DNA from: Actinomycetota bacterium
GTDB lineage: Bacteria > Actinomycetota > Actinomycetes > Propionibacteriales > Nocardioidaceae
Direction: 5' to 3'
DNA length: 11,317 nucleotides
Assembly: GCA_009702305.1 (NCBI GenBank)
Contig: WLIH01000031.1
Location: 1-11,317, forward strand
Below, piece by piece: positions 1-11,303 of the stretch (position 1 is its first letter; every line of letters begins with the position of its first letter). The position numbers and the translations under genes are program-made. The notes under the pieces are model-generated. The model did no database searches and was not told the origin of the DNA. It saw only the letters and a list, made by a program, of their open reading frames with translations.

Positions 1-3000
1 CGTTCGCGCCGCCGGCGTAGGCCGTCGCGCCACCGTCGCCGCCGGTCCACCACTGGGTGCGCAGCTGCCCGGCGGGGTCGGCGAACCCGACGCGGTAGGT
101 GCCCGCGGCGACCTCGCCCAGATACCAGGTGCCATCGGACTGCGTGCACGTCCCGTAGGCCGCCGGGCCCGCTGGCGAGGTGTAGAGGTAGACGCAGACG
201 CCCGCGGCCGCCGTCGCGGGGTTGGTGCCCCGGGTCACGGTGCCGCTCACTGTCCCCGCCGTCACCGGACTCAGAGCGATATCGGCGGTGCGGGTCGCCC
301 CGCCGGTCACGGTGAGGGCGACGGCTCCGGCCTGGCTCGGCGCGCCGCCGGGGCTGCCGGTGTGCCAGCGGGTGGGGTGCACTCCGGCCGGGTCGAAGAA
401 CGCCAGGTCGTAGCTGCCGGCCGCGACGTCGTAGAGACCGAAGGTGCCGTCAGCCAGGGTGCACGTCGCATAGGCCGCTGCCGTCGCGTCGCCGTGCGGG
501 TAGAGGTAGGCGCAGACGTTGCTCAGCGCTCCCCCGCCCTGCGTGGTCGTGACCGTGCCCGCAACAGCCCCCGGGTTGCGCCCGGTCAGCACCAGGTCGA
601 CGCCGGTCACGATCCCGCCGACCACCAGCGGCGTGGCTCGCCAGATGGTGCGGTAGGTGCCCGATGGATCGGCGACTGCGACCTCGTAGGTGCCCGCCGT
701 CACCCCGGCGAGGTAGTAGCTGCCGTCCGCCTGCGTGCAGGAGCCGTATGACGCCGCCGGAGCCGAGCGCGAGGTGTACAGGTAGACGCAGGCGCCGGGG
801 AACGGCCCGGCCGGCGCACTGACCACGCCGGCCACCGACGAAGCAGGGGGCGCCGTGCACGAGATCGTGCCGGCCCGCAGCGCGTGCCCGCCGGTGTTGG
901 AGTCGTCGGACCACACAACCGGCTTGGTGCCGCCGACGCATTGGCTCTGCGGCGCGATCGCGAAGCCCTCGTTGTTCAGGTTGGGCATCGCGGCGGGGCG
1001 CTCGTAGGCCTGGGAGATCGCGAAGCGACCGTCGCCGCCCACCTGGTGCAGGGTCGAGCGGCCGTTGCAGGTGTCGTCGCAGACGGCCCACAGGCTGCTG
1101 CGCTCGGGGTCCCACTCCAGATCCATGACGCCGGGGAAGCCACTGGCGAACGACGTCACCCGGGTGTAGCTGCCCCCGGCTCCCAACGCGTAGCCGTAGA
1201 TGCGGCCGTTGGCCTCGAGCCCGACGAAGAAGAGACCGCTGCCGTGCCCCGCGTAGGCCGCAGGGTCGTAGAGCGCGCCGGCGTCGGTGCGGAAGCCGGC
1301 GGCGACCAGCGCGCTGTCCGGCACCCAGGCGATGGCCTCGAGGCCGGCGTTGGCCGCGACACTCGGCAGATCGGCGGCCAGGGCCCATTCGTCGGTGGCC
1401 GAGAGTGGCGAGCCGCTGCCGCTGACGTCGTAGCGCAGGATCGAGGGCCTGCTGATGCCGTTGGCACTGTTGTTGCGCTCCGTGGCGACGTAGACCCCGC
1501 CGGCCGCGCCCGCAGCCGTGAGGGCCACGCCTTCGGCGTCCGGCACTCCGGTGCCGTCCGGGTAGCGCAGCACGCGGGTGGAGTCGATCGCGTAGCCGCC
1601 GGCTCCCGGCAGCAGCCGCACCAGCGAGCCGGTGCCGTTGTTGACGGCGTACAGCGTCGTGGCATCGAAGGCCAGACCGCTGACGTCACCGCCCAGGGCC
1701 CCGGCGGCATCGGCCGTCGCGACGTCGGAGCCACCGGGCCACGGCGTGGTGACGAGATCGCCCGGGCAGACGTTGGAGGTGCCCTTGGTCGGCGTCGCGG
1801 TGGTCGTGAACGCACCCGTGCCGTTGGGGCAGCGGCCGTACGACGTGGTCGCGTGCGCCGTCCATGCGTAGGAGTCGACCAGGGTCACTCCGTCGGCAAG
1901 GTAGAGACGCGCCGAGTCGGAGGTGCCGAGACCGAACACGAACTGGGCCTCGTCGAGCGTCAGGTACCCGCCTGCCGGGATCGTCGAGCCGCTCGGGAGG
2001 GTGTAGACGTCGGAGTCGACGTTGTCCTTGAAGATCCAACCGGACACGTCCAGCGAGGTCGTGCCGTTGTTGATCAGCTCGACCCAGTCACCGGGGTTGC
2101 CGCCGCTGGACTCGACCTCGTTGACCCGCACCGGCGGGGTGCAGTCGTTGGCCGTGCCCTTGGTCGCGCTGGTCGTGGTGGCGAAGGCGCCTGTCGCGCT
2201 GGGGCAGCGACCGTAGGTCGTCGTCGCATGCGGGGTCCACGAGTAGGAGTCGATCAGGGTGGTGCCGTCGCTGGCGAAGAGCCGGACGGAGTCCGGGCTG
2301 CCGAGGCCGAACCCGAAGTCGGCCTCGTTGAGCACGTACAGCGCACCGGCAGCCAGCGTCGTCCCCGCAGGGATCGTGTAGAAGGCGTGGGTGTCGTCGG
2401 CGTCCTTGAACTTCAGGCCCGACAGATCCACCGACGTCGAGCCGGTGTTGACGAGCTCTGCCCAGTCGCCGATCGGGTCGCCGTTCGACTCGACCTCGTT
2501 GAAGCGCACCGGCGGCAGGGCGACGGCGCAGCTGTTGGCGGCGCCCTTCGTCGGAGCGAGGGTCGTCACGAACGCGCCGGTGCCGTTGGGGCAGCGGCCG
2601 TAGGTCGTGGTGGCGTGCGTCGTCCAGGTGTAGGAGTCGATCAGCGTGGTGCCGTCCGTGCCGAAGAGGCGTGCCGAGTCGCCGCCACCCAGGCCGAAGA
2701 CCGGGTCGAAGGCGAGGTAGGCGCCGGGCGCGATCGACGTGCCCGCAGGGATGGTCAGCGGGTCCGCCGTGCCGTTGTCGCGCAGCACCAGGCCACCGGC
2801 GTCCACGGTGCCTGCTCCGGTGTTGACCAGCTCGATCCAGTCCGGCCCGGGAGTCGCGTCGCTCGACTCGACCTCGTTGATGCGCAAGGCGGTCGCCGGG
2901 CTCGTCGGCGGCGTGCAGCTGTTGGCAGCAGCCTTGGTGGAGGCCAGCGTGGTGACGAAGGCGCCGGTGCCGTCGGGGCAGCGGCCATAGGTCGGGTTGG

Positions 3001-3397
3001 CGTGGGCGGTCCAGGAGTAGGTGTCCACCAGCGTGGTGCCGTCGGCGAGGAACAGTCGCGCGGAGTCGGCGGAGCCGAGACCGAAGTCGACGCCGTTCGG
3101 CGAGTTCTTCACGTCGACATCGAAGGCGAGGTAGCCCCCGACCGGCAGGGTGGTGCCGGCCGTGATCGTGTAGGTGCTGGTGTTCGCGTTGTCGCGCAGG
3201 ATCATCCCGCCGATCGCGACCGGCGACGAACCGGTGTTGGTCAGCTCGATCCAGTCCTGGACATCGCCGTTGGACTCGACCTCGTTGATCGCGACGGCGG
3301 GCAGGTCGGCGGCCTGGACGGGCGCCGGGACCAGTGCGAGACCGGCGAGCGCACACGCGGTCGCGACCAGGCCCTGGACGAGGAGTTTGGGGTGCAC
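1..3397 (-). CDS. Large secreted multidomain protein: four lamin-tail domains, phytase-like propeller, three CarboxypepD_reg-like repeats (C-terminus cut off)
   Basis: The reading frame stays open from a GTG at 3397 to the left edge (1132 codons, no stop), so the protein is partial at its C-terminus. AGGGAAG at 3404-3410 lies 6 nt before the GTG. Residues 1-29 form a signal peptide ending VQA, with no lipobox. Four lamin-tail (LTD-like) repeats begin near residues 33, 170, 296 and 422. Each opens with NEVES and DWIEL-type motifs (DWAEL, DWVEL in later copies) and ends with YGRCP and a second Cys, so each probably carries a disulfide. Residues about 550-845 resemble the phytase-like beta-propeller family (DAEGVAL, ATERNN, GLEAIAW, NNEGFAI). 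Three repeats of about 100 residues begin near 853, 943 and 1049, each with paired Cys (CVYLY or CAYLY, then a second Cys about 15 residues on) and DGT/AGTY motifs typical of carboxypeptidase-regulatory-like domains. The protein is probably exported and cell-surface or extracellular. LTD and beta-sandwich modules are usually adhesive or targeting; any enzymatic role would rest in the propeller and is not established. Confidence 0.88.
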   Translation of the reverse strand, partial: MHPKLLVQGLVATACALAGLALVPAPVQAADLPAVAINEVESNGDVQDWIELTNTGSSPVAIGGMILRDNANTSTYTITAGTTLPVGGYLAFDVDVKNSPNGVDFGLGSADSARLFLADGTTLVDTYSWTAHANPTYGRCPDGTGAFVTTLASTKAAANSCTPPTSPATALRINEVESSDATPGPDWIELVNTGAGTVDAGGLVLRDNGTADPLTIPAGTSIAPGAYLAFDPVFGLGGGDSARLFGTDGTTLIDSYTWTTHATTTYGRCPNGTGAFVTTLAPTKGAANSCAVALPPVRFNEVESNGDPIGDWAELVNTGSTSVDLSGLKFKDADDTHAFYTIPAGTTLAAGALYVLNEADFGFGLGSPDSVRLFASDGTTLIDSYSWTPHATTTYGRCPSATGAFATTTSATKGTANDCTPPVRVNEVESSGGNPGDWVELINNGTTSLDVSGWIFKDNVDSDVYTLPSGSTIPAGGYLTLDEAQFVFGLGTSDSARLYLADGVTLVDSYAWTAHATTSYGRCPNGTGAFTTTATPTKGTSNVCPGDLVTTPWPGGSDVATADAAGALGGDVSGLAFDATTLYAVNNGTGSLVRLLPGAGGYAIDSTRVLRYPDGTGVPDAEGVALTAAGAAGGVYVATERNNSANGISRPSILRYDVSGSGSPLSATDEWALAADLPSVAANAGLEAIAWVPDSALVAAGFRTDAGALYDPAAYAGHGSGLFFVGLEANGRIYGYALGAGGSYTRVTSFASGFPGVMDLEWDPERSSLWAVCDDTCNGRSTLHQVGGDGRFAISQAYERPAAMPNLNNEGFAIAPQSQCVGGTKPVVWSDDSNTGGHALRAGTISCTAPPASSVAGVVSAPAGPFPGACVYLYTSRSAPAASYGSCTQADGSYYLAGVTAGTYEVAVADPSGTYRTIWRATPLVVGGIVTGVDLVLTGRNPGAVAGTVTTTQGGGALSNVCAYLYPHGDATAAAYATCTLADGTFGLYDVAAGSYDLAFFDPAGVHPTRWHTGSPGGAPSQAGAVALTVTGGATRTADIALSPVTAGTVSGTVTRGTNPATAAAGVCVYLYTSPAGPAAYGTCTQSDGTWYLGEVAAGTYRVGFADPAGQLRTQWWTGGDGGATAYAGGAN

Positions 3398-3548: not shown

Positions 3549-3953
3549 TCAGTCCGAGGCGAGTCGGGCGGCCCCGGCGTCCGTCTCGACGACGACGTTG
3601 GTGGCCTTGACGACGGCGGTCGCGCTGACGCCCGGCTCGAGGCCGAGCTCGTCGGCGGCCTCGCGGCTCATGAGGGACACGACGCGGAAGTCGCCGCAGG
3701 CCAGCTCCACCTGGGCCATCACGCCATCGCGCTTGACGTGGGTGACGACACCGACGAAGCGGTTGCGCGCACTGGAGACGCGGTCGCCGCCGGTGAGAGA
3801 GGCCGTCAGAGCGGCGAGCTCGCCGGCCGCGAGGACCCGCTGGTTGCCGCGCCGCTCGAACGTCAGCCGACCGGCAGCCTCCCAGCGACGCAGGGTGTCG
3901 ACGCTGACGCCGAGCGCCTGCGCGACCTCGCCGATCCTCAGGTAGTCCGCCAT
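3549..3953 (-). CDS. MerR-type HTH plus TOBE (Mop) oxyanion-sensing transcriptional regulator
   Basis: This 134-residue protein has an N-terminal excisionase/MerR-like winged helix at about residues 4-45 (RIGEVAQALGVS, then TLRRWEAAGRL). A TOBE/Mop molybdate- or tungstate-binding domain follows at about residues 60-126 (RNRFVGVVTHV, then ATAVVKATNVVVE). Known single-TOBE regulators bind molybdate or tungstate and repress uptake genes. This one is the last gene of the tup operon, starting 16 nt after the tupC stop, so autoregulation through the palindrome in front of tupA is the simplest model (inference). No strong Shine-Dalgarno is visible before the ATG at 3953, so translation may be coupled to tupC. 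It is not E. coli ModE-like: the HTH is MerR-type and there is one TOBE domain. The family assignment is strong; the ligand (tungstate or molybdate) is inferred from its neighbours. Confidence 0.9.
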   Translation of the reverse strand: MADYLRIGEVAQALGVSVDTLRRWEAAGRLTFERRGNQRVLAAGELAALTASLTGGDRVSSARNRFVGVVTHVKRDGVMAQVELACGDFRVVSLMSREAADELGLEPGVSATAVVKATNVVVETDAGAARLASD

Positions 3954-3969
3954 CGGGCGAGCATAGGGC

Positions 3970-4902
3970 TCACACCGACGGCGGGAAGCGCACGCCGCCG
4001 CTGACCCGGACGCCGACGCGGGCGCCGACCCGGGGCAGCCCGCCGGGATCCGTCGCGTCGACCAACGCCCACACGGTGCCGGCCGCGGTCGCGACCTCGA
4101 CCCGGGCGCCGTCCTGGAGGCGTACGACGCGGGCGACCGCGCCCTCGAGCAGCCCCGGCTCGCCAGCCGGCACGAGCCGCACGTGCGGCGCTCGGGTCAG
4201 GGTGGAGCCGCTCGCGTCGACGAGACAGCCGTCGTAGCCGAGGAAGCGGGCCACCTCGGCGGTCGGGGGTGCCGCCAGGAGTCGGTCGGGGGCGGCGTCG
4301 GCGACCAACCGGCCGTCGACGAGGACGGCGACCCGGTCGGCCATCGCCCACGCGTCGGCCCGGTCGTGCAGCACCACGAGCACTCCCCCGCCCGTGGCCC
4401 GCAGCGCCGAGGTCGCATCCTCGCTGAGGGCGGCGTGGCTCTCGGGGTCGAGCCCGGCGAAGGGCTCGTCGAGCAGCAGCAGGTCAGGCGCCACGGCGAC
4501 CCCGCGGGCCAGGTGCACGCGTCGTGCCTCACCGCCGGAGAGCGAGCCCGCCTGACGACCGGCGAGGTGAGCGGCCCGCATCAAGTCGAGCGCTGCCATC
4601 GCGCGCGCCCGTCGTTCGCGACGCGGCACTCCCCACCAGGCCAGGGCGAGCTCGACGTTGGCGCGCGCCGTACGCCGGGCCAGGCCGGGGGTCTGCAGCA
4701 CCGTCGCCGCACGTCCCTCGATGCGCACCGCACCCTGCGAGGGCAGGAGTCCGCCGACCGCCTCGACCAGGGTGCTCTTGCCGGCCCCGTTGGGGCCGAG
4801 GACCGCGACCACCTCGCCGCGGGCGAGCGTCAGGTCGACGTCGTGCACCACCTGTCGTCGCCCCCGTCGGACCTGGAGACCGCGGACCTCGAGCACGCTC
4901 AT
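3970..4902 (-). CDS. tupC: Tungstate/molybdate ABC transporter ATP-binding protein with C-terminal TOBE-like region
   Basis: This 310-residue ATPase energises import through the TupB permease at the cytoplasmic face. All nucleotide-binding motifs are present: Walker A GPNGAGKST (36-44), Q-loop Gln70, signature LSGGE (121-125), Walker B LLLLDEP (141-147) and H-loop His179. Residues about 225-310 look like a TOBE-type beta-barrel, as in ModC and related ATPases, which may sense intracellular oxyanion. The start is the ATG at 4902, which overlaps the tupB stop as ATGA. The same frame stays open to 5700, but that stretch is a frame-shadow of tupB with Arg-rich, low-complexity sequence, and the ATPase homology begins precisely at MSVLEVRGL. 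The tungstate specificity comes from the adjacent TupA and TupB; the ATPase alone does not distinguish tungstate from molybdate. Confidence 0.92.
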   Translation of the reverse strand: MSVLEVRGLQVRRGRRQVVHDVDLTLARGEVVAVLGPNGAGKSTLVEAVGGLLPSQGAVRIEGRAATVLQTPGLARRTARANVELALAWWGVPRRERRARAMAALDLMRAAHLAGRQAGSLSGGEARRVHLARGVAVAPDLLLLDEPFAGLDPESHAALSEDATSALRATGGGVLVVLHDRADAWAMADRVAVLVDGRLVADAAPDRLLAAPPTAEVARFLGYDGCLVDASGSTLTRAPHVRLVPAGEPGLLEGAVARVVRLQDGARVEVATAAGTVWALVDATDPGGLPRVGARVGVRVSGGVRFPPSV

Positions 4903-5618
4903 GACGACCGGCCGACCCGTCGGGTGGCGCCCCCACCGGCCTGCAGGACGGTGAGCGCTGCCGTGATGACGAGGATCAGTCCGAGCAGCACGATGCCGAT
5001 CGCGAGCCCCTCGGCGAAGCGCGCCGCCTCGATCCGCTGCAGCGCGGCACTGGCCAGGGTCTGGTCCAGGCCGTCGATGTTGCCGCCGACCAGCACCACC
5101 GCACCGACCTCGGAGAGCCCGGAGCCGACCGCGGCGATCGTGGCCGCCATGATGCCGACGCGGGCTTCGCGCAGCGCGAGCACGCAGACCCGCCAGCGTC
5201 GGGCGCGATAGGCCCGCGCCTGCGCGAGCAGCCCCGGCGCGACGCCCCGGACCGCGGAGGCGGTCAGCGCCACGACGATCGGCAGGGCGAGCGCCGTCTG
5301 GGCGACCAGCACGCCGTTGAGGGTGAAGAGCAGGTGGAAGCGACCGAGCGGCGCCTGCGGGAACATCAGCAGCGCGAAGACCAGGCCCACGATCACCGGC
5401 GGCAGCCCGAGGCCGGCGTTGGCCAGCGTCATCAGGACACCGCGGCCCCGGAAGCGACCGAGCCCGAGCGCAAGCCCGAGCGGCAGGCCGATGAGGAGTG
5501 CGACCCCGGTCGAGATGAAGGCGACCTTCAAGGTCACGACGACCAGCTGCACCAACCACGGCTCGTGCGCCCACACGATGTCCCAGGCCTCGGCGAGCCC
5601 CTCGAGGAAGAACCTCAC
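4899..5618 (-). CDS. tupB: Tungstate ABC transporter permease, TupB type
   Basis: This 239-residue integral membrane protein has several hydrophobic segments, about five or six by eye. Residues 69-79 (GLGLPPVIVGL) and the later REARVGIMAA and GSGLSEVGAVVLVGGNI stretch, which spans the EAA-type ATPase-contact loop, match the TupB family well. That family moves tungstate handed over by TupA. Translation starts at a GTG at 5618 that overlaps the TGA of the upstream DUF2149-type gene (GTGA), and its own stop overlaps the tupC start (ATGA). Expression of the three genes is therefore probably translationally coupled. The family is distinct from ModB, which supports tungstate over molybdate, though some Tup systems are not tested for substrate. 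Confidence 0.93.
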   Translation of the reverse strand: MRFFLEGLAEAWDIVWAHEPWLVQLVVVTLKVAFISTGVALLIGLPLGLALGLGRFRGRGVLMTLANAGLGLPPVIVGLVFALLMFPQAPLGRFHLLFTLNGVLVAQTALALPIVVALTASAVRGVAPGLLAQARAYRARRWRVCVLALREARVGIMAATIAAVGSGLSEVGAVVLVGGNIDGLDQTLASAALQRIEAARFAEGLAIGIVLLGLILVITAALTVLQAGGGATRRVGRSS

Positions 5619-5950
5619 GGGCTCGGGCTGCTGCCGGGCGAGGGCACCACGTAGACGAGACGACCGTCGTCGAGACGGTAGACGGTGCCGACCTCCTCAC
5701 CCTGCCCGATGACCTGCTCGCCCTCGGGCGGCACGTCGTCGACCTGGGCGTCGTCGGGCACGGTGATCGTGTCGGCCGGCGGGGCGGGGACCCCGTCGGT
5801 CAGGGCCGTCTCCAGATCCAGCGAGGAGAGGGCCGCGAGCAGGAAGGCGACCGAGAGCACGATGCCGAGGTCGAAGAGGTTGACGAGCCCGTCGAGCGGA
5901 TCGCCGGCGCGGTCCTCGTGGCGTCGGGCACGCGGGCTGACCCGGATCAC
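5615..5950 (-). CDS. DUF2149-type, ExbD-like single-pass membrane protein
   Basis: This 111-residue protein has a basic N-terminus, one transmembrane helix at about residues 22-42 and an external C-terminal domain. The helix starts NLFDLGIVLSVAFLL, and Asp27 sits where ExbD/TolR proteins carry their essential proton-accepting Asp, just inside the membrane on the cytoplasmic side. The C-terminal part (GQGEEVGTVYRLDDGRLVYV, residues about 82-101) matches my recollection of DUF2149, known mainly from archaeal methanogens next to an ExbB/TolQ homologue. It is shorter than ExbD (about 140 residues). The GTG start at 5950 overlaps the stop of the ExbB-like gene (GTGA), and its stop overlaps tupB. 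The proposed role is the stator subunit that converts proton flow into movement of a partner. The DUF2149 name should be confirmed by profile search. Confidence 0.8.
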   Translation of the reverse strand: MIRVSPRARRHEDRAGDPLDGLVNLFDLGIVLSVAFLLAALSSLDLETALTDGVPAPPADTITVPDDAQVDDVPPEGEQVIGQGEEVGTVYRLDDGRLVYVVPSPGSSPSP

Positions 5951-6579
5951 GCGGCCGCTCCCGGGTCGGTGAGGATCGCGGCGACGTACTCGAGGTCGGA
6001 GTAGTCCTGGCCGTAGATCCGGTCGCGCGCCAGCGAGATCGCGAACGCTCCGGCGCCGATCAGCAGGCCGAGCACCGTGATGCTGAAGGCGACGCGCAGG
6101 TTGTCGGTCAGGGTCGCCACGTCACCGGCGGCCAGGCCCTCCAGCGCCGGTGACAGCGGGATCAGGGTGCCCATCAGCCCGAGCGCAGGCCCGACGCGCA
6201 CCAGCAGCCGGGTGCGTGCGAGCCGACGCTGGCAGCCGAAGTCGAAGTCGGCCAGCTCCTTGGCGATCCTCGGCTCGGACGACTCGCGCCCGGCCTCCTC
6301 GGCCAGCACGGCCAGGGTGTGCGACATCGAGACGCTCCAGCCGATCGGCTCCAGCACCCGGCCGGCCGTGGCTCGATCGTCGGCCTCGATCGCCGCCCGC
6401 GCCTCGGCAGCGGCCCGGGTCACGTCCGGCAGCCGACGGCGCCAGCGACGGCGCGACTCGACGAGGTAGGCGCCGACCTCGACGACCACGGCGGCCAGCG
6501 CGAGCAGTGTCACCACCAGCACCGGCACCTCGAGCGCGGCCGCGGCGTCGAAGATGACGTCGTAGATGTCGTCGTTCAC
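5947..6579 (-). CDS. MotA/TolQ/ExbB-family proton channel
   Basis: This 210-residue protein has three membrane helices at about residues 17-40, 125-147 and 163-185, with a basic-rich cytoplasmic segment between the first two. That is the ExbB/TolQ topology. The family signature GPALGLMGTLI (130-140) is followed by GD at 152-153 and SITVLGLLIGA (166-176). Thr138 and Thr168 are candidates for the conserved pore threonines of ExbB. With the ExbD-like neighbour it would form an inner-membrane motor driven by proton flow. The GTG start at 6579 overlaps the stop of the PKD protein gene (GTGA), with GGTGGG shortly upstream. In Gram-negatives this motor drives TonB or TolA across the periplasm; here no TonB is visible in the window. 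Confidence 0.9.
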   Translation of the reverse strand: MNDDIYDVIFDAAAALEVPVLVVTLLALAAVVVEVGAYLVESRRRWRRRLPDVTRAAAEARAAIEADDRATAGRVLEPIGWSVSMSHTLAVLAEEAGRESSEPRIAKELADFDFGCQRRLARTRLLVRVGPALGLMGTLIPLSPALEGLAAGDVATLTDNLRVAFSITVLGLLIGAGAFAISLARDRIYGQDYSDLEYVAAILTDPGAAA

Positions 6580-7865
6580 GTGCCCACCTTGTCGCGCCGA
6601 CGGCGCCAGGCGCGGCGTACGGCGGGCGACTCGCCGAGAGCGCCCGCTGCGAGCAACAGCACCCCGCCCGCGACCGCCAGCAGCCAGGTCGGCAGGGCCG
6701 TCCGCGGCGAGGAGGCACGCGCACTCGGAGCGACGTCCTCGGGCGCGACGGAGGGCGCCGCGCCGGCTGCGAGCCCGATCAGCAACGTGCCGCTCACCTG
6801 ACGCCCGGCGACGGGTGCGGGGCCGGGTCCGGCATCGGGGGTCGGGGTGACCACGGACGGCTCGCCGCCGGTCTCGACCTCGCTCAGACCGCCCAGCGTC
6901 GGGCCACCCTCCGCGGGCGCCCCGCCGGTCGACCCGCCCTCGTGCGCGCCGCCGCTGTCGGTCGGTCCGGTGTCCGGACCCTCGCTCTCCCCGCCTCCGG
7001 GTGTCGGGCCGGGGCTCTCCTCGGGTGGCGGCTCGCTCACCTCGACGGCCACCGGGTCCGAGCGGCCAGACGAGCCGTCGTCGCCGGTGACGCTGAGCAC
7101 GACGTAGTACGTCGAGCGGTCCGTGGCGTCGTAGGTGTGGCGCGGCGCGGCGACGCTCGAGGTGTCGCCGTCGCCGAGCGCCCAGTCGTAGGTCAGACCG
7201 GCCGGAGCGTCGGGCACGCTCGCCGTCAGGTCGTAGGTGTTGGCGGCGACTCCCGCGCGGGTCACCTCGGTCGCGGTGACGACGGGACGCAGCAGCCGCC
7301 CGCTGGTGTGCACCACGATCCGCAGCGCTGCGTCGGTCTGGAAGTAGCCCTTGCGGTTGGCCTGGGCGCTGACGTTGACGTCCTGGTCGTCGCGCAGCGG
7401 GCGCAGGTAGGTGATCGCGCCACCCTGCCCGCCGCTGCTGCCGGAGAAGCTGACCGCCGGCATCAGCGCGTCCTCGAAGCCGTTGCTCCCGGGATCGTCG
7501 AGCGCGTGCTCGTCGAGCCGCAGCGACGTGCCCTGCTCGTCGATGACCTCGGTATAGGTCACCAGGTCGTGCGAGAGCGGCGCCATCGCGTCGACCAGCG
7601 CCTGCAGCGAGGTCCAGGTGCGGGTGTCGGGCGAGCGCTCAACACCCGCCTCGTCACGCAGCAGGTACGGCGCGTCGACGAGGTCGGTCAGGTCGACGAC
7701 CTCCTGGGCCGAGTAGGTCCGGGTCTCGCTCACCGAGCCGACCACCTCGACGACCACGCACGGTCCGCCGTCGGGACAGGTGGCCGCCGCGACCGGGGCT
7801 GCGAGCGCGACGAGGGACGCCCCGAGCCCCAGGACCAGGGCTCCGAGCGTCCGTCGTGCGCGCAC
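6576..7865 (-). CDS. Membrane-anchored surface protein with PKD domain and Pro/Gly/Glu-rich stalk
   Basis: This 429-residue protein starts at a GTG at 7865, 23 nt after the tupA stop, with no strong Shine-Dalgarno. Residues 1-28 are a signal peptide. Residues about 30-195 form an unrecognised extracellular domain. Its opening (VVVEVVGSVSETRTYSAQEV) faintly recalls molybdopterin-oxidoreductase-like beta domains, too weakly to name. A PKD domain covers about 196-278 (LTYDWALGDGD, then HTYDATDRSTYYVVLSV). Residues 279-350 are a low-complexity Pro/Gly/Glu/Thr stalk. A transmembrane helix (TWLLAVAGGVLLLAAGALG, 393-411) and an Arg-rich cytoplasmic tail end the protein. No LPXTG sorting motif is present. 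Lying between tupA and the ExbB/ExbD-like pair, it is a candidate docking or force-transducing partner; this is inference. Confidence 0.82.
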   Translation of the reverse strand: MRARRTLGALVLGLGASLVALAAPVAAATCPDGGPCVVVEVVGSVSETRTYSAQEVVDLTDLVDAPYLLRDEAGVERSPDTRTWTSLQALVDAMAPLSHDLVTYTEVIDEQGTSLRLDEHALDDPGSNGFEDALMPAVSFSGSSGGQGGAITYLRPLRDDQDVNVSAQANRKGYFQTDAALRIVVHTSGRLLRPVVTATEVTRAGVAANTYDLTASVPDAPAGLTYDWALGDGDTSSVAAPRHTYDATDRSTYYVVLSVTGDDGSSGRSDPVAVEVSEPPPEESPGPTPGGGESEGPDTGPTDSGGAHEGGSTGGAPAEGGPTLGGLSEVETGGEPSVVTPTPDAGPGPAPVAGRQVSGTLLIGLAAGAAPSVAPEDVAPSARASSPRTALPTWLLAVAGGVLLLAAGALGESPAVRRAWRRRRDKVGT

Positions 7866-7888
7866 CGCGCGCCGGGATGCCTGCGACC

Positions 7889-9532
7889 TCAGCTCAGGGT
7901 CACCGACCTGACCGAGGTCTGGGCCGTCCGGATCACGCCGACGTTGACGTACTGCAGCCGGTAGCGCCAGGTGCCGGCGCCGAGGCGGACGGTCACGTCG
8001 AACTTCTTCGCGCCGGCCCGGACGACCTGGGTGCCGACCGGCTTGAGCTCACGCTGGCCCTGGGCGGCCAGGAGCACGAGCTGTCCGGTGTCCCCTGCGG
8101 GGACGACGGGCGCCAGGACACCCGTGAGCGTCAACCGGCCACCGGAGATGGAGCGCGCGACGTCCTGCAGTCGACCCTGCACCTCGACCTGACCGATGGT
8201 CAGCGACGTCGGGGCGAGCAGGTCGCCGAACACCGGGTCGAGGGTCGCGTCCTCCACCTTGGTGATGGGGCCGACGTCGAGGGTGTAGGTGGCATCGGCC
8301 TGGGGGCGGTAGCCGATCGTCACGTGCCCCTCGCCGTCCGTCGTGCCTGCGGAGACCAGGACCGGCGCACCGGTCGGGTCGCCGGGCGGGGTGGCGAGCA
8401 GTTTGACGAGGACCCCGTCGAGCGCAGGGGTGCCGGGCGTGACGTTGGCGAGCGTCGCCCCGACCGAGATCCGCTCGCCGGCCTTCACCGTGGTCGGCAG
8501 CGGGTCGTCGAGGGTCAGGCTCGGGGCGGCCGAGGGCAGGAACGGCGGGTCGGCACTCTCGTTGAGGTAGGCGCCGATCGCCTGCTGCGTCTCCGGCGAG
8601 GTCACCCAGTCGAGGAAGAGCAGTGCGGCCTCGTTGTTGATGTCGACGTTGGGACTGTCGGCGAACTTCTCGGGGCTCAACGCATAGGCGTGGAAGGAGT
8701 TGATGAGCAGCGGCACTCCCCCTGGTGCCGCGGCGTCGTTGTCACGCGTGACGATGCCGAGCCGCGTGATCTGGCCCTTCGACGCCCGGTAGTTGTAGGT
8801 GCCGCGATCGGTGAAGACGTAGCAGCCACCGCCGTCGTAGTTGCAGACGTCGCCGTTGAGGATGTTCGGGCCCTGCGTCAGCCCGGTGGCGTGATACCAG
8901 GACGGGAGCGCGATCGGGTTCGCGCAGCTGCCCGTCGAGGTGCTCGGCGAGGCGCCCCCGCCGTTCGCAGCGCTGACCGTGCAGGTGGTCGTGCCGGTCG
9001 TCAGCGCCCAGATCGCGTGCTCCTGCACGGTGGTGCCGGGCGTGCCGCCGCGGGAGACGAAGTTGGCCGTGCCCGCCGCACCGGCGGCAGCGATCCTGGC
9101 GAACGCACCGGCGATGTCGTGCGGGGCCGAGGCGAGGACGCCGGCCGGGTCGTCGGCCGGACCGAGGAGCACGTAGTCGCCCCAGAAGATCGCCCGGCCG
9201 TACTCCTCGTCGGAGTAGCCGGCCGCGACGAACTGGTTCTCCAGGGCCGCCGCGTGCACGATCATCGCGTCGGCGGTGCCGGCCTGCGCATAGGTGATCG
9301 CCGCCCCGGTCCCGCGGCTGACGTACTGGAAGTCGTACTGCGGGTAGGCCTTCTCGAAGCCGGGCTCCAGGACGGTCTGGGTGAGGAACGAGTCGAAGAC
9401 GTCGCTGGTGCCGACCACGACGAACGGCTCGGGATCGGCCGCCGACGACGGCGAGCCGATCGCCACCGTCGCGACCGTCGCGCCCGTCGCGAGGGCGAGA
9501 CCGAGCAGGGAGCCCGTGAGGCGCTGAGACAT
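7889..9532 (-). CDS. tupA: TupA-type tungstate-binding protein with C-terminal beta-sandwich extension
   Basis: This 547-residue exported protein is about twice the usual TupA length. Residues 1-32 are a signal peptide with an AxA-like end and no lipobox Cys. Residues about 34-335 match the TupA periplasmic-binding fold: GTGAAITYAQAGTADAMIVH (74-93), WGDYVLLGPADDPAGV (117-132), SRGGTPGTT (160-168), TDRGTY (241-246) and DWVTSPETQQAIGAY (308-322). Four cysteines (184, 203, 230, 237) lie in or near a Gly/Ser-rich insert not typical of TupA and may form disulfides. Residues about 336-547 look like two Ig-like or CARDB-like beta-sandwich domains. The protein should capture tungstate outside the cell for TupB. 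Having neither lipid nor membrane anchor is odd for a Gram-positive binding protein. The ATG at 9532 has AGGA and GGTGA upstream. It is the first gene of the operon, with a palindrome 14 nt upstream. Confidence 0.93.
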   Translation of the reverse strand: MSQRLTGSLLGLALATGATVATVAIGSPSSAADPEPFVVVGTSDVFDSFLTQTVLEPGFEKAYPQYDFQYVSRGTGAAITYAQAGTADAMIVHAAALENQFVAAGYSDEEYGRAIFWGDYVLLGPADDPAGVLASAPHDIAGAFARIAAAGAAGTANFVSRGGTPGTTVQEHAIWALTTGTTTCTVSAANGGGASPSTSTGSCANPIALPSWYHATGLTQGPNILNGDVCNYDGGGCYVFTDRGTYNYRASKGQITRLGIVTRDNDAAAPGGVPLLINSFHAYALSPEKFADSPNVDINNEAALLFLDWVTSPETQQAIGAYLNESADPPFLPSAAPSLTLDDPLPTTVKAGERISVGATLANVTPGTPALDGVLVKLLATPPGDPTGAPVLVSAGTTDGEGHVTIGYRPQADATYTLDVGPITKVEDATLDPVFGDLLAPTSLTIGQVEVQGRLQDVARSISGGRLTLTGVLAPVVPAGDTGQLVLLAAQGQRELKPVGTQVVRAGAKKFDVTVRLGAGTWRYRLQYVNVGVIRTAQTSVRSVTLS

Positions 9533-9545
9533 GGAGTCACCGATC

Positions 9546-9566
9546 TTCCTAGGTAATACCTAGGAA
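9546..9566 (-). promoter_or_regulatory. Perfect palindromic candidate operator in front of tupA
   Basis: TTCCTAGGT, a 3-nt AAT spacer and ACCTAGGAA form a perfect 9-bp inverted repeat ending 13 nt before the tupA ATG. It is AT-richer than its surroundings, and its CCTAGG core was not seen elsewhere in the window. One arm supplies an AGGAAG that could be part of the Shine-Dalgarno. A TATGGT (minus strand, 9566-9571) is a weak -10 candidate that would put transcription start within the palindrome, but no good -35 is present. The most likely binder is the HTH-TOBE regulator encoded at the end of the operon (inference). Confidence 0.65.
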
Positions 9567-9655: not shown

Positions 9656-9862
9656 GGTCTCGATACGGCGCTGGCGCGCCTACTCGACCAACGAAGATAA
9701 CGCCCTCGTTGGTCGAGTGCCGACGAGCGCCAGACCCTCCCTCGTTGGGTCGAGTGCCGACGAGCGCCAGACCCTCCCTCGTTGGTCGAGTGCCGACGAG
9801 CGCCAGACCCTCCCTCGTTGATCGAGTGCCGACGAGCGCCAGCGAGGAGGTGTATCGAGACC
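9656..9862. repeat. Compound palindromic intergenic repeat with an internally amplified arm
   Basis: The outer ends are a perfect 11-bp inverted repeat: GGTCTCGATAC (9656-9666) and GTATCGAGACC (9852-9862). Inside, CTCGACCAACGA (9683-9694) pairs with TCGTTGGTCGAG (9706-9717) across an 11-nt loop, and CTGGCGC (9671-9677) pairs with GCGCCAG (9727-9733), giving a long imperfect hairpin. The right arm is then repeated in tandem. The whole resembles REP-like palindromic elements of the GGTCTCGATAC...CTCGACCAACGA kind that I associate with intergenic regions of actinobacterial genomes. It lies just past the 3' end of the dehydrogenase gene and could also end its transcript. Confidence 0.75.
9705..9842 (+). 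repeat. Tandem 36-bp direct repeats, about 3.8 copies
   Basis: Units run 9705-9740 (36 bp), 9741-9777 (37 bp, one extra G), 9778-9813 (36 bp) and 9814-9842 (partial, 29 bp). Each begins CTCGTTGGTCGAGTGCCGAC and continues through GAGCGCCAG; the first three end ACCCTCC. Unit 4 has one substitution (GTTGATC) and then runs into the unamplified end of the palindromic element. Copies are nearly identical, which suggests recent expansion by slippage or unequal exchange. There are no spacers, so this is not a CRISPR array. Confidence 0.85.
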
Positions 9863-9880: not shown

Positions 9881-10600
9881 TCAGCAGGCGGTGCCGCGGT
9901 CGACCGACAGGACGGCCCCGGTGACCGACGCGGCGGCGTCGGAGGCGAGGTAGGCGACGGCGTCGGCGATGTCGCGCGGCGGCATGAAGCCGTAGCGGCC
10001 GCCCGCGGTCTCGCTCAGCAGGCCCCAGTCGAGCTGGGTGTCGGCGTGCTCGGCGGCGGCCGCCATCGGCAGGTCGGTCTCGACGCCGCCGGGGCAGATG
10101 GTGTTGACCCGGATGCCGTCGGCCGCCAGCTCGAGCGCCAGGGACTTCATCAGCAGGATCACGCCGCCCTTGGACGCGCAGTACGACGCCTGGTAGGGCT
10201 GGGCACGGAGGCCGGCGATCGAGGCGATCGTGACGATGTTGCCCTTGCTGGCGCGCAGATGCGGCAGCGCGGCGTGGCTCATGAGCATCGGCCCGGTGAG
10301 GTTGACGCCGAGGTGGCGCTGCCACGTGGCGACGTCGAGATCCTCGAAGCGTCGGAACTGGTCGATGCCGGCGACGTTGACCACGACGTCGATCCCGCCG
10401 AGCTCCTCCGCAGCGGCCGCGACCGCCGCGGACACCGAGTCGGCGTCGCTGACGTCGCAGGGCCGGACACCGTCGGCCTCGCGCAGGTCGAGGCCGACCA
10501 CGCGCGCGCCCTCCTCGGCCAGCAGGTCGACCGTCGCCTTGCCGACTCCGCCGGCTGCCCCGGTGACCACAACCCGCTTGCCCTCGAACCGTCCTGCCAC
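9881..10600 (-). CDS. Short-chain dehydrogenase/reductase (classical SDR)
   Basis: This 239-residue cytoplasmic oxidoreductase has the Rossmann cofactor motif TGAAGGVG (13-20). Asp38 at the end of the second strand favours NAD(H) over NADP(H). NVAG (75-78) stands in for the usual NNAG. The catalytic residues fit Asn100, Ser127, Tyr140 and Lys144 (SYCASKGG). PGGVETDL follows the catalytic helix as expected, and the length is normal for the family. The GTG start at 10600 has GGAG 6 nt upstream on the minus strand (10607-10610). The gene stands alone, divergent from the sigma-factor gene and followed by the repeat element. Substrate cannot be read from sequence; annotations such as 3-oxoacyl-ACP reductase-like would be generic. 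Confidence 0.93.
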   Translation of the reverse strand: MAGRFEGKRVVVTGAAGGVGKATVDLLAEEGARVVGLDLREADGVRPCDVSDADSVSAAVAAAAEELGGIDVVVNVAGIDQFRRFEDLDVATWQRHLGVNLTGPMLMSHAALPHLRASKGNIVTIASIAGLRAQPYQASYCASKGGVILLMKSLALELAADGIRVNTICPGGVETDLPMAAAAEHADTQLDWGLLSETAGGRYGFMPPRDIADAVAYLASDAAASVTGAVLSVDRGTAC

Positions 10601-10727
10601 ATCCTGCTCCGTTCGTCCGTGCGCCCGCGCTGGGTCGCCGCGGGCATCCTTGCAGGCGAGTGAGCCACGACACCCCGGAGGTCGGTGCCACGCGCCGGTG
10701 GTCCCGAGGCGTCAGAGAGGTGTGACG

Positions 10728-11303
10728 GTGACCGACGACCTCGACCAGACGACCCGACGACACCCGCCCCCCACCACGGCGGCGGGCGACCCTCCCGACT
10801 TCGACGCCCTGGTGCAGGCCACCGGGCGTCCGCTCTACCGCGCGGCCCTGCTGCTCACCGGTGGAGACCACCACCTCGCCGAGGACCTGCTGCAGACGAC
10901 GTACACGAAGGTGTACGCGTCGTGGCGTCGGGTCAGTCGCGCCGACGACCCGGTGGCCTACACCCGGACCATGCTGACCCGGACCTTCCTCAGTCACCGG
11001 CGGCTGCGGCGCTCGGGCGAGCGGCCGAGCGACGTGCTGCCGGAGCCGCCACCGACCGACCCCGACACCACGCTCACGCTCGACCTGGTGGCCGCCCTCG
11101 CCCGGCTGACACCGCGCGACCGCGCCGTCGTGGTGCTGCGCTACTGGCTCGACCGCAGTGTCGCCGACACGGCCGCCGACCTGGGGCTCAGCCAGACCGC
11201 GGTCCGCTCCGCCGCCCGGCGTGCCCTGGCCCGGCTGCGCGAGCAGCTGGCCGACCTCGACCACGATCTCGACCTCGACCTCGACGAACAGGACCTCCGA
11301 TGA
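10728..11303 (+). CDS. SigE-family (ECF-like) RNA polymerase sigma-70 factor
   Basis: This 191-residue protein has sigma region 2 at about residues 24-92 (FDALVQATGRPLYRAALLLT, AEDLLQTTYTKVYASW) and region 4 at about 128-182 (LARLTPRDRAVVVLRYWLD, then LGLSQTAVRSAARRALARLR, the HTH). This matches the actinobacterial SigE-family of small sigma factors. Two GTG starts are possible, at 10722 and 10728. GAGAGG at 10715-10720 is 7 nt from the second and only 1 nt from the first, so 10728 is preferred. The frame stays open upstream to 10230, but that part is antisense shadow of the dehydrogenase. The Asp-rich C-terminus (DLDLDLDE) is low complexity. Its stop overlaps the next start (ATGA), as is usual when a membrane or anti-sigma partner is co-transcribed. 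Confidence 0.93.
   Translation: MTDDLDQTTRRHPPPTTAAGDPPDFDALVQATGRPLYRAALLLTGGDHHLAEDLLQTTYTKVYASWRRVSRADDPVAYTRTMLTRTFLSHRRLRRSGERPSDVLPEPPPTDPDTTLTLDLVAALARLTPRDRAVVVLRYWLDRSVADTAADLGLSQTAVRSAARRALARLREQLADLDHDLDLDLDEQDLR

Follow-up and report, generated by a model that had tools for sequence, protein, structure and literature searches.

A probable tungstate-uptake operon of an actinobacterium that encloses an ExbB/DUF2149 motor pair and a PKD surface protein

Motors of the Ton type are understood as energisers of the outer membrane, and the locus described here raises the question of what a related motor does where it is conserved and an outer-membrane role is unexpected. The window, that is, the whole stretch of DNA analysed, is contig WLIH01000031.1 (11,317 nucleotides; assembly GCA_009702305.1) of an actinobacterium of the Nocardioidaceae, one whole contig (no. 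235) of a 2.9-Mb, 76%-complete assembly with 478 contigs. Seven genes at 3549-9532, all on the minus strand, are read as one operon in which the genes of a TupABC-like importer enclose an ExbB-like protein, a DUF2149 protein and a membrane-tethered surface protein with a PKD domain. The account that appears moderately probable is that this operon joins an ABC importer for a group-6 oxyanion to a Ton-like proton-driven motor, which serves an unlipidated TupA in a cell with no known outer membrane; the activity of the motor, the mechanical coupling and the substrate are what we infer from the following genes (aa, amino acids; HTH, helix-turn-helix) and their relatives.

7889-9532, minus strand: tupA-like gene for a substrate-binding protein, 547 aa (PF12849)
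6576-7865, minus strand: PKD surface protein, membrane-tethered, candidate force transducer, 429 aa (PF18911)
5947-6579, minus strand: ExbB/TolQ-like motor subunit, 210 aa (PF01618, 30.1 bits against a cut-off of 22.9)
5615-5950, minus strand: DUF2149 protein (HmuV-like), 111 aa (PF09919, 51.8 bits against a cut-off of 27.1)
4899-5618, minus strand: tupB-like ABC permease, 239 aa (PF00528; NF038017, 157.6 bits against a cut-off of 100; NF041773 below its cut-off)
3970-4902, minus strand: tupC-like ABC ATPase, 310 aa (PF00005; start taken from the gene caller)
3549-3953, minus strand: HTH (MerR/excisionase type)-TOBE (Mop) regulator, 134 aa (PF00376, PF03459; TIGR00638, 58.2 against a cut-off of 55)

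A sequence-only reading of this DNA had described one tightly packed minus-strand run with 4-nucleotide overlaps. The seven-gene run stands, and the overlaps hold for its core, at four of the six junctions (surface gene/exbB, exbB/DUF2149, DUF2149/tupB and tupB/tupC), the remaining two being gaps of 23 nucleotides between tupA and the surface gene and 16 nucleotides between tupC and the regulator gene.

The distribution of these genes supports the conclusion, at the level of sequence, that the motor genes belong to the tup operon and are no chance neighbours. Genome contigs were scanned with an alignment of ExbB-like proteins (A1), and the best 80 of at least 598 stretches were taken, 39 of them actinobacterial by title (loci are cited by L numbers). 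The complete order tupA-surface gene-exbB-DUF2149-tupB-tupC is present in eight of these 39 (L017, L022, L023, L024, L033, L038, L049 and L058), while in L020 it is interrupted by the contig end; a second tupB occurs in L020, L023, L024, L038, L049 and L058. The gene caller was home-made, and the surface gene of L017, L022 and L058 was found only with a hidden Markov model on stop-to-stop frames. In a genus sample, DUF2149 was detected in 6 of 215 genomes at seven loci; at six of these, counting the window's own, it is enclosed by a complete tup operon. Of the six genus loci beyond the window, five have the whole tup operon together with a TOBE regulator (L103, L104, L105, L106 and L107, L106 being the same strain as L022), and L108, from the genome of L106, has surface gene, exbB and DUF2149 without tup genes. 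Among 58 relatives DUF2149 was found in the own genome only, and in a phylum sample in 13 of 396 genomes at an E-value of 0.001, 10 of them above the cut-off.

Searches that started from TupA gave the same association. Nine of the 215 genus genomes match at an E-value of 1e-8 and seven below 1e-100, and six of these seven are exactly the six genomes with DUF2149 (Fisher p 5e-11, relatedness ignored). In a class sample, four of 394 genomes match at 1e-30, the own one included; the other three loci (L136, L137 and L138), located through TupA alone and not through the motor genes, all have a full motor operon, that of L137 without an adjacent HTH-TOBE gene. The interdigitated order, with motor genes between tupA and tupB, is thereby known from 15 distinct actinobacterial loci besides the window. 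The earlier reading stood to fall if the motor genes were rarely found with tup genes in relatives, and the reverse was observed at six of the seven genus DUF2149 loci and at all three loci found through TupA. Its description of the arrangement as a trait of 'this lineage' has to be abandoned, since the occurrence is sporadic and reaches across several actinobacterial families, with examples from the Solirubrobacterales and Conexibacter.

The anchoring of TupA varies with the presence of the motor. The TupA of the window has a signal peptide without a lipobox and no Cys in its leader; among motor-associated TupAs the lipobox is missing in 15 of 16 loci, L136 being ambiguous (LVSC early in the leader), with the calls for L038, L049 and L058 resting on the looser expression only. 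A motorless relative, L129 (genome G514), has the order tupA-tupB-tupC-TOBE with a palindrome-like site, tupB following right after tupA and no surface gene, exbB or DUF2149 in the operon. L129 is the sister of L104 inside the motor clade, both in the TupA tree (99/96) and in the TupB tree (94/86; row L103 of the latter, a neighbouring ModB-like permease to judge from its long branch and gene order, was disregarded), and by eye the flanks of the two loci have genes in common, for which reasons the motor was most likely lost in the L129 lineage. The TupA of L129 stops some 100 residues short and carries LSAGC-GG in the leader, probably a lipoprotein site of the PROSITE-type pattern, though the stricter regular expression does not match it. 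Canonical short TupAs with a lipobox are found in L059 and, by eye, in L130 and L131. Applied to the 120 best TupA homologues, the looser regular expression marks seven lipobox-like stretches, two of them convincing by eye (P0217 and P0240); in the 91 of these 120 that bear FGDL, a mark of the domain, lipobox-like stretches occur in 3 of 10 short-tailed against 1 of 81 long-tailed proteins (Fisher p 0.004). The difference in TupA anchoring between L104 and L129 offers a direct and cheap test.

The motor itself is represented by two proteins. With its PF01618 score the ExbB-like protein qualifies as a stator of the ExbB/TolQ family, and its T138 and T168, which we take to be the proton-path threonine positions of ExbB, are both Thr in 88 of 88 sequences from loci picked with peptide patterns that contain both threonines. 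Many of the nearest ExbB-like proteins bearing an organism name come from Nocardioides, which is presumably the genus of the window too. In DUF2149, D27 is kept in 68 of the 69 rows with a residue at that position (71 rows) and G88 in 71 of 71; an AlphaFold2 model of low confidence (predicted template modelling score 0.31) gives a single long helix starting near an invariant NLFD, followed by a small beta-hairpin. The description of DUF2149 as ExbD-like has to be corrected: in an hhalign comparison with nine ExbD sequences (those recovered by a filter from 30 loci) Asp aligns with Asp, but the probability of 5-8% is not significant and the protein is not recognisable by an ExbD profile. From these residues DUF2149 may work like ExbD, and sequence and model support the two proteins as a motor pair whose activity we infer.

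By membership the motor of this composite operon is no Ton system. The own assembled genome (about 76% complete) has no match to PF02472 (ExbD), which is matched by 5 of 14 control genomes, to PF03544 (the TonB C-terminal domain) or to PF07715 (the TonB-dependent receptor). Its other PF01618 match (C134) resembles by eye a flagellar MotA, followed by MotB. A search of PDB sequences with the ExbB and DUF2149 profiles gave no useful match.

The candidate partner of this motor is the surface protein, whose AlphaFold2 model (numbering from codon 2) divides as follows.

7299-7766, minus strand: N-terminal domain, folded like the molybdopterin domain of sulfite oxidase (model residues 33-188)
7032-7298, minus strand: PKD domain (model residues 189-277)
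6798-7031, minus strand: disordered linker rich in Pro, Gly, Ala, Ser and Thr (model residues 278-355)
6777-6797, minus strand: strand-like box VSGTLLI with an invariant Gly, D-box-like (model residues 356-362)
6633-6689, minus strand: C-terminal transmembrane helix with invariant G407 (model residues 392-410), invariant E411 right after it, then a basic cytosolic helix

The ectodomain is modelled mostly at a predicted local distance difference test (pLDDT) above 90, and the linker at block means of 41-53 from residue 291 onward. This linker is 79 aa long in the window; in 24 homologues its median length is 81.5 aa, with 71% Pro, Gly, Ser, Thr and Ala and 3% hydrophobic residues. The box, a conserved V-x-G-x-L-L strand, is matched as [VIL]xGx[LVIM][LVIM] in 23 of 24 tails where shuffles expect 0.41, a count that tests a pattern picked by eye and seeded on the same proteins; independently of that seed, the box Gly, G407 and E411 are each invariant in all 24 rows of the surface-protein alignment (A2, 24 sequences). 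Beyond the membrane helix a basic stretch, helical in the model, is conserved as well. Sequence and model thus support a protein apparently built like TonB in reverse, the D-box-like strand included.

Foldseek alone placed PKD and Ig-like chains at the top among the 50 matches listed, and the sulfite oxidase (SUOX) fold of the N-terminal domain, that of the molybdopterin domain in PF00174, emerged in a second look. Cys is the ligand of Mo in the sulfite oxidase family, and no Cys stands in any column of A2 that is invariant or nearly so; binding of a molybdenum cofactor by the domain was dropped as an idea because this conserved Cys is missing. The surface protein was likewise dropped as a tungstate receptor, the same ectodomain accompanying FecBCD-type importers. 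A second SUOX-like protein (PF00174 at the cut-off) is encoded at 4359-5348 (minus strand) of L024, a Solirubrobacterales tup-motor locus, near a divergent TOBE regulator.

The three tup genes are Tup-like, and by sequence the operon is a probable set of tungstate-uptake genes. TupA reaches 57.2 of the 400 bits of the tungstate equivalog NF041772 and misses that cut-off by a wide margin, as TupB does for NF041773 (127.9 of 320 bits), TupB meeting the broader NF038017. The PDB sequences matched by TupA are 3lr1 (6e-19) and 5my5 (2e-17), both TupA-type. In the 5my5 alignment the pocket residues R118 and H59 are kept (numbering mapped by eye), and the pocket marks VHA and xSRG recur in 119 and 111 of the 120 best homologues, respectively; the position of the TTTS motif, which is described for TupA in PMC5517513, is occupied in the window by TSDV (of GTSDV), and the motif is not kept. 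TupA also has a C-terminal extension of about 200 aa, its 547 aa comparing with 257-282 aa in the canonical proteins of the loci considered here; this domain was ruled out as an obligatory dock, L022 and L138 carrying the motor without it. The own assembled genome has four PF00384 matches, one possibly a complex-I subunit, and the operon's tupB is its sole match at an E-value of 0.001, with no second TupB-like permease. The substrate would be a group-6 oxyanion, tungstate and molybdate being indistinguishable from the present data.

A candidate site for joint control of the operon precedes tupA:

9548-9564, no strand: 17-bp perfect palindrome CCTAGGTATTACCTAGG, predicted operator of the operon, 15 nucleotides before the tupA start

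The palindrome matches in both orientations without a mismatch, against a chance mean of 0.01 matches in 200 shuffles. It falls within the span covered by the sequence-only reading, which extends to 9566, and goes unmentioned there. Of 16 other tup loci, ten have a similar site ahead of tupA (L022, L023, L033, L049, L103, L104, L105, L107, L136 and the motorless L129; shuffle p at most 0.02), L017, L024, L038, L058, L137 and L138 falling below the mark, which was set at 12 or more of 16 fixed positions of a consensus drawn by eye from upstream sequences, chiefly the window's own. At 12 motor loci with no tup operon next to them, the best score ahead of the surface gene or of the operon start was at most 10 of 16. 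The HTH-TOBE protein presumably binds the palindrome at 9548-9564. The composite tup operon of L103 has as its direct neighbour a ModABC-like operon (4079-7117) that includes an HTH-TOBE regulator of its own, and the ModABC-like binding protein (PF13531) has a lipobox by eye.

Together these parts suggest how the system could work. When metal is sufficient, the HTH-TOBE protein would repress the whole gene set. Once expressed, proton flow through ExbB/DUF2149 would move DUF2149, which would grip the conserved strand of the surface protein and pull or cycle the tethered ectodomain through the wall zone. Being without a lipid anchor, TupA would be held or collected by the surface protein and carried to TupBC, which would import the anion with ATP, the motor thus providing a moving anchor for the binding protein in place of a fixed lipid one. 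The best indirect support for such mechanical delivery across a thick wall is TupA without a lipid anchor where the motor is present.

The ExbB/DUF2149/surface-protein set is, on sequence grounds, a general motor module broader than tungstate, since in some loci its neighbour is a FecBCD-type importer and in others there is no ABC transporter beside it. FecBCD-type genes (Peripla_BP_2, FecCD and ABC) adjoin the motor in L028, L031, L032, L044 and L074, labelled by Pfam in L028, L031, L032 and parts of L074 and by phmmer elsewhere; by eye, the binding proteins of L028, L031 and L032 have no clear lipobox and that of L044 is ambiguous. Metagenome-assembled genome SZAS-9 has a motor with Fec genes (L031) and another with tup genes (L033), and bin_221 likewise carries both L044 and L049. 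In Patulibacter americanus (L074, 11165-12868) one polypeptide joins a Peripla_BP_2 binding protein to a HugZ-like region (CREG beta-barrel, DUF2470 and PNPOx), for which reason L074 is probably a heme importer with the same motor, here accompanied by a toroid-type surface protein. The ectodomain is exchanged in further loci, being toroid-type (PF00432) in L048 as in L074 and PF14269-type in L069 and, below the cut-off, in L059. The motor variant of L059 (7580-9951) and L069 (4830-7096) has a gene like an energy-coupling factor S-component and an arylsulfotransferase-like surface protein, presumably a propeller, upstream of ExbB-DUF2149. In an ExbB tree from a quick search, with several long branches and not used as main evidence, the tup label changes six times, two changes being forced by starred branches, and the fec label five times, three of them forced.

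Outside the Actinomycetota, ExbB-DUF2149 adjoins CobN-like genes in many archaeal and Bacteroidota loci. The archaeal loci L053, L054, L057, L061, L064 and L070 encode, directly before ExbB-DUF2149, surface proteins that reach 2242 aa and end in a G-Y-P/Q-M-G motif and a membrane helix. Tails with a predicted C-terminal helix were compared for motifs, the counts omitting L052, L053, L008, L009, L106, L109 and L110 (archaeal or duplicate loci). Unseeded training on the actinobacterial tails settled on Pro/Ala-rich stretches and failed. A motif trained on CobN-like tails, with a training set that also caught a core segment of the CobN proteins, was found at p <0.05 in 9 of 24 actinobacterial tails, four of these 24 rows being closely similar Aeromicrobium sequences (Fisher 7e-12), against 0 of 22 controls (Fisher 0.67). 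The seeded box motif was found in none of four archaeal giant proteins; its control set gave a low Fisher value because four module-protein copies (L008, L009, L109 and L110) were inside it, and among the other 21 controls 3 had p <0.05.

A wider proposal, to be held more tentatively than the account of the window, is that monoderms possess a general force-transduction system in which ExbB/DUF2149 pulls 'reversed TonB' surface proteins by the D-box-like strand, with exchangeable ectodomains (SUOX-PKD, toroid and propeller) and importers (Tup and FecBCD/heme). A moving tether would replace the lipid anchor, and unlipidated binding proteins would roam the wall and be hauled to the importer; the CobN/HmuS clusters of archaea and Bacteroidota would be further branches. 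If the motor works, proton-driven force at the surface would be a general aid to metal uptake in monoderms, and ExbB-family motors would need a wider definition.

The likeness to the Ton system extends to an ExbB-family stator, a partner with one Asp-bearing helix, a link to scarce-metal uptake, and a transducer that combines a membrane helix with a hydrophobic strand close to it and a disordered linker rich in Pro. ExbD has a larger extracytoplasmic part than DUF2149, which stands in its place in the window. Unlike in the Ton system, no outer-membrane receptor, TonB or PF02472 ExbD was detected in the own assembled genome, the transducer is reversed, with its membrane helix at the C-terminus, and the motor works beside an ABC importer. 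The D-box of TonB is described in PMC10907165 as a pattern PhiZetaPhiZetaPhiPhiZeta between the membrane anchor and the Pro-rich linker; the window box resembles it, as do 23 of 24 tails, but has Gly at a central hydrophobic position and reversed topology. In the Hmu heme system of the Bacteroidota (HmuYRSTUV), as presented in PMC10434189, PMC10100974 and PMC12583661, HmuU is ExbB-like, HmuV is DUF2149/ExbD-like, and the proposed role of the motor is to power a TonB-dependent receptor, alongside the de-chelatase HmuS. The window shares with it an exbB-like gene directly followed by DUF2149, a pair also seen in Bacteroidota loci L080, L086, L088, L089 and L095, whereas HmuS, HmuR and HmuY are not among the window genes and PF07715 has no match in the own assembled genome. 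HmuY, HmuT and HmuV are said in PMC10100974 to appear diagnostic of heme transport; to HmuV (DUF2149) as such a diagnostic, in that paper's wording, the tup loci are exceptions. With other TupABC importers the operon shares a binding protein, permease and ATPase in one operon, a TupA-type sequence and part of the pocket, and it differs from them in an unlipidated, extended TupA and in the motor and surface genes between tupA and tupB. The archaeal CobN-like/DUF2162/ExbB/DUF2149 clusters resemble the operon in that homologues of ExbB and DUF2149 accompany a large protein tethered to the membrane, and they differ from it in the CobN-like partner, the common tail motif being suggestive. The proposal of an undescribed composite system fares well to the extent that no account of the combination was found in open-licence PubMed Central literature, and absence there is not absence from print. 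Two papers among those listed, on Campylobacter and Marinobacter, have both TupA and ExbB.

Several points weigh against a motor-assisted importer. The genome in which no ExbD, TonB or receptor was matched is 76% complete. Conservation of the ExbB threonines is partly due to the selection of loci, and the alignment of DUF2149 with ExbD is not significant. The loss of the motor in L129 is a single event, and the link between tail length and lipobox is partial. The C-terminal domain of TupA is dispensable, missing as it is in motor loci L022 and L138. The SUOX-PKD ectodomain is common to Tup- and Fec-type loci and so is no tungstate receptor as such, and the seeded box motif is weak in CobN/HmuS tails (2 of 22 at p <0.05, Fisher 0.027). 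Many module loci have no adjacent ABC genes, and in L059 the motor pair and another kind of surface protein lie upstream of, not inside, a canonical lipoprotein TOBE-tupA-tupB-tupC set. In a rival reading, fairly unlikely on balance, motor and surface protein are co-regulated with tungstate or molybdate uptake and have a separate envelope function under metal limitation, such as wall remodelling, display or shedding of surface proteins, or adhesion, and TupABC works alone. The module indeed occurs without adjacent ABC genes in Aeromicrobium (L018, L019, L021 and L029) and in L025, L026, L034, L042 and L045, it accompanies other transporters too, and the motorless operon of L129 is apparently enough for its host, as are the motorless canonical tup sets L130 and L132. 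Such independence is hard to reconcile with the place of the motor genes, which separate tupA from tupB in 15 loci besides the window, with TupA anchoring that varies with motor presence, and with adjacent ABC genes that, where found, are mostly those of Tup- or FecBCD-type importers.

An importer with the same motor mechanism but for an oxyanion other than tungstate or molybdate would explain the 57 of 400 bits of TupA and the alignment of TTTS with TSDV, yet it is unlikely given the pocket His and Arg kept across the family, the Mop/TOBE regulator in the operon, and an own genome with four PF00384 matches and no other TupB-like permease. A little less probable again is that surface protein and motor form a sensor, the mechanical or ligand state of the ectodomain being passed inward to tune the importer or the HTH-TOBE regulator. 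The regulator within the operon and a candidate transducer with a conserved basic segment after its membrane helix would suit this role, but the regulator has its own Mop/TOBE domain, a proton-driven motor would be a costly sensor, and the motor of L137 has no adjacent HTH-TOBE gene. Finally, incomplete Ton systems in Actinobacteria are judged likely non-functional in a 2025 survey (PMC12204202), and by analogy the motor genes could be functionless vestiges or lateral acquisitions. Their sporadic occurrence (6 of 215 genus genomes; in the phylum sample 13 of 396, 10 over the cut-off) agrees with this, which is nevertheless very improbable in view of intact frames, residues invariant across distant taxa, conserved order and tight co-occurrence with one TupA type.

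The flanks of the operon hold other genes. Across the window G+C per kb is 70-77%, and Rfam and tRNA scans of it gave no matches. A minus-strand gene at 2-3397, cut off by the end of the contig, encodes a large protein (1132 aa or more) that has four lamin-tail domain (LTD) stretches and phytase-like and carboxypeptidase-regulatory-like domains. On the other side lie a short-chain dehydrogenase/reductase (SDR) family oxidoreductase (9881-10600, minus strand) and a sigma factor of the sigma-70 family (regions 2 and 4; 10722-11303, plus strand), and between the operator and the SDR gene a GC-rich 36-nucleotide unit is repeated in tandem at 9703-9842, in 3.9 copies with 97% matches.

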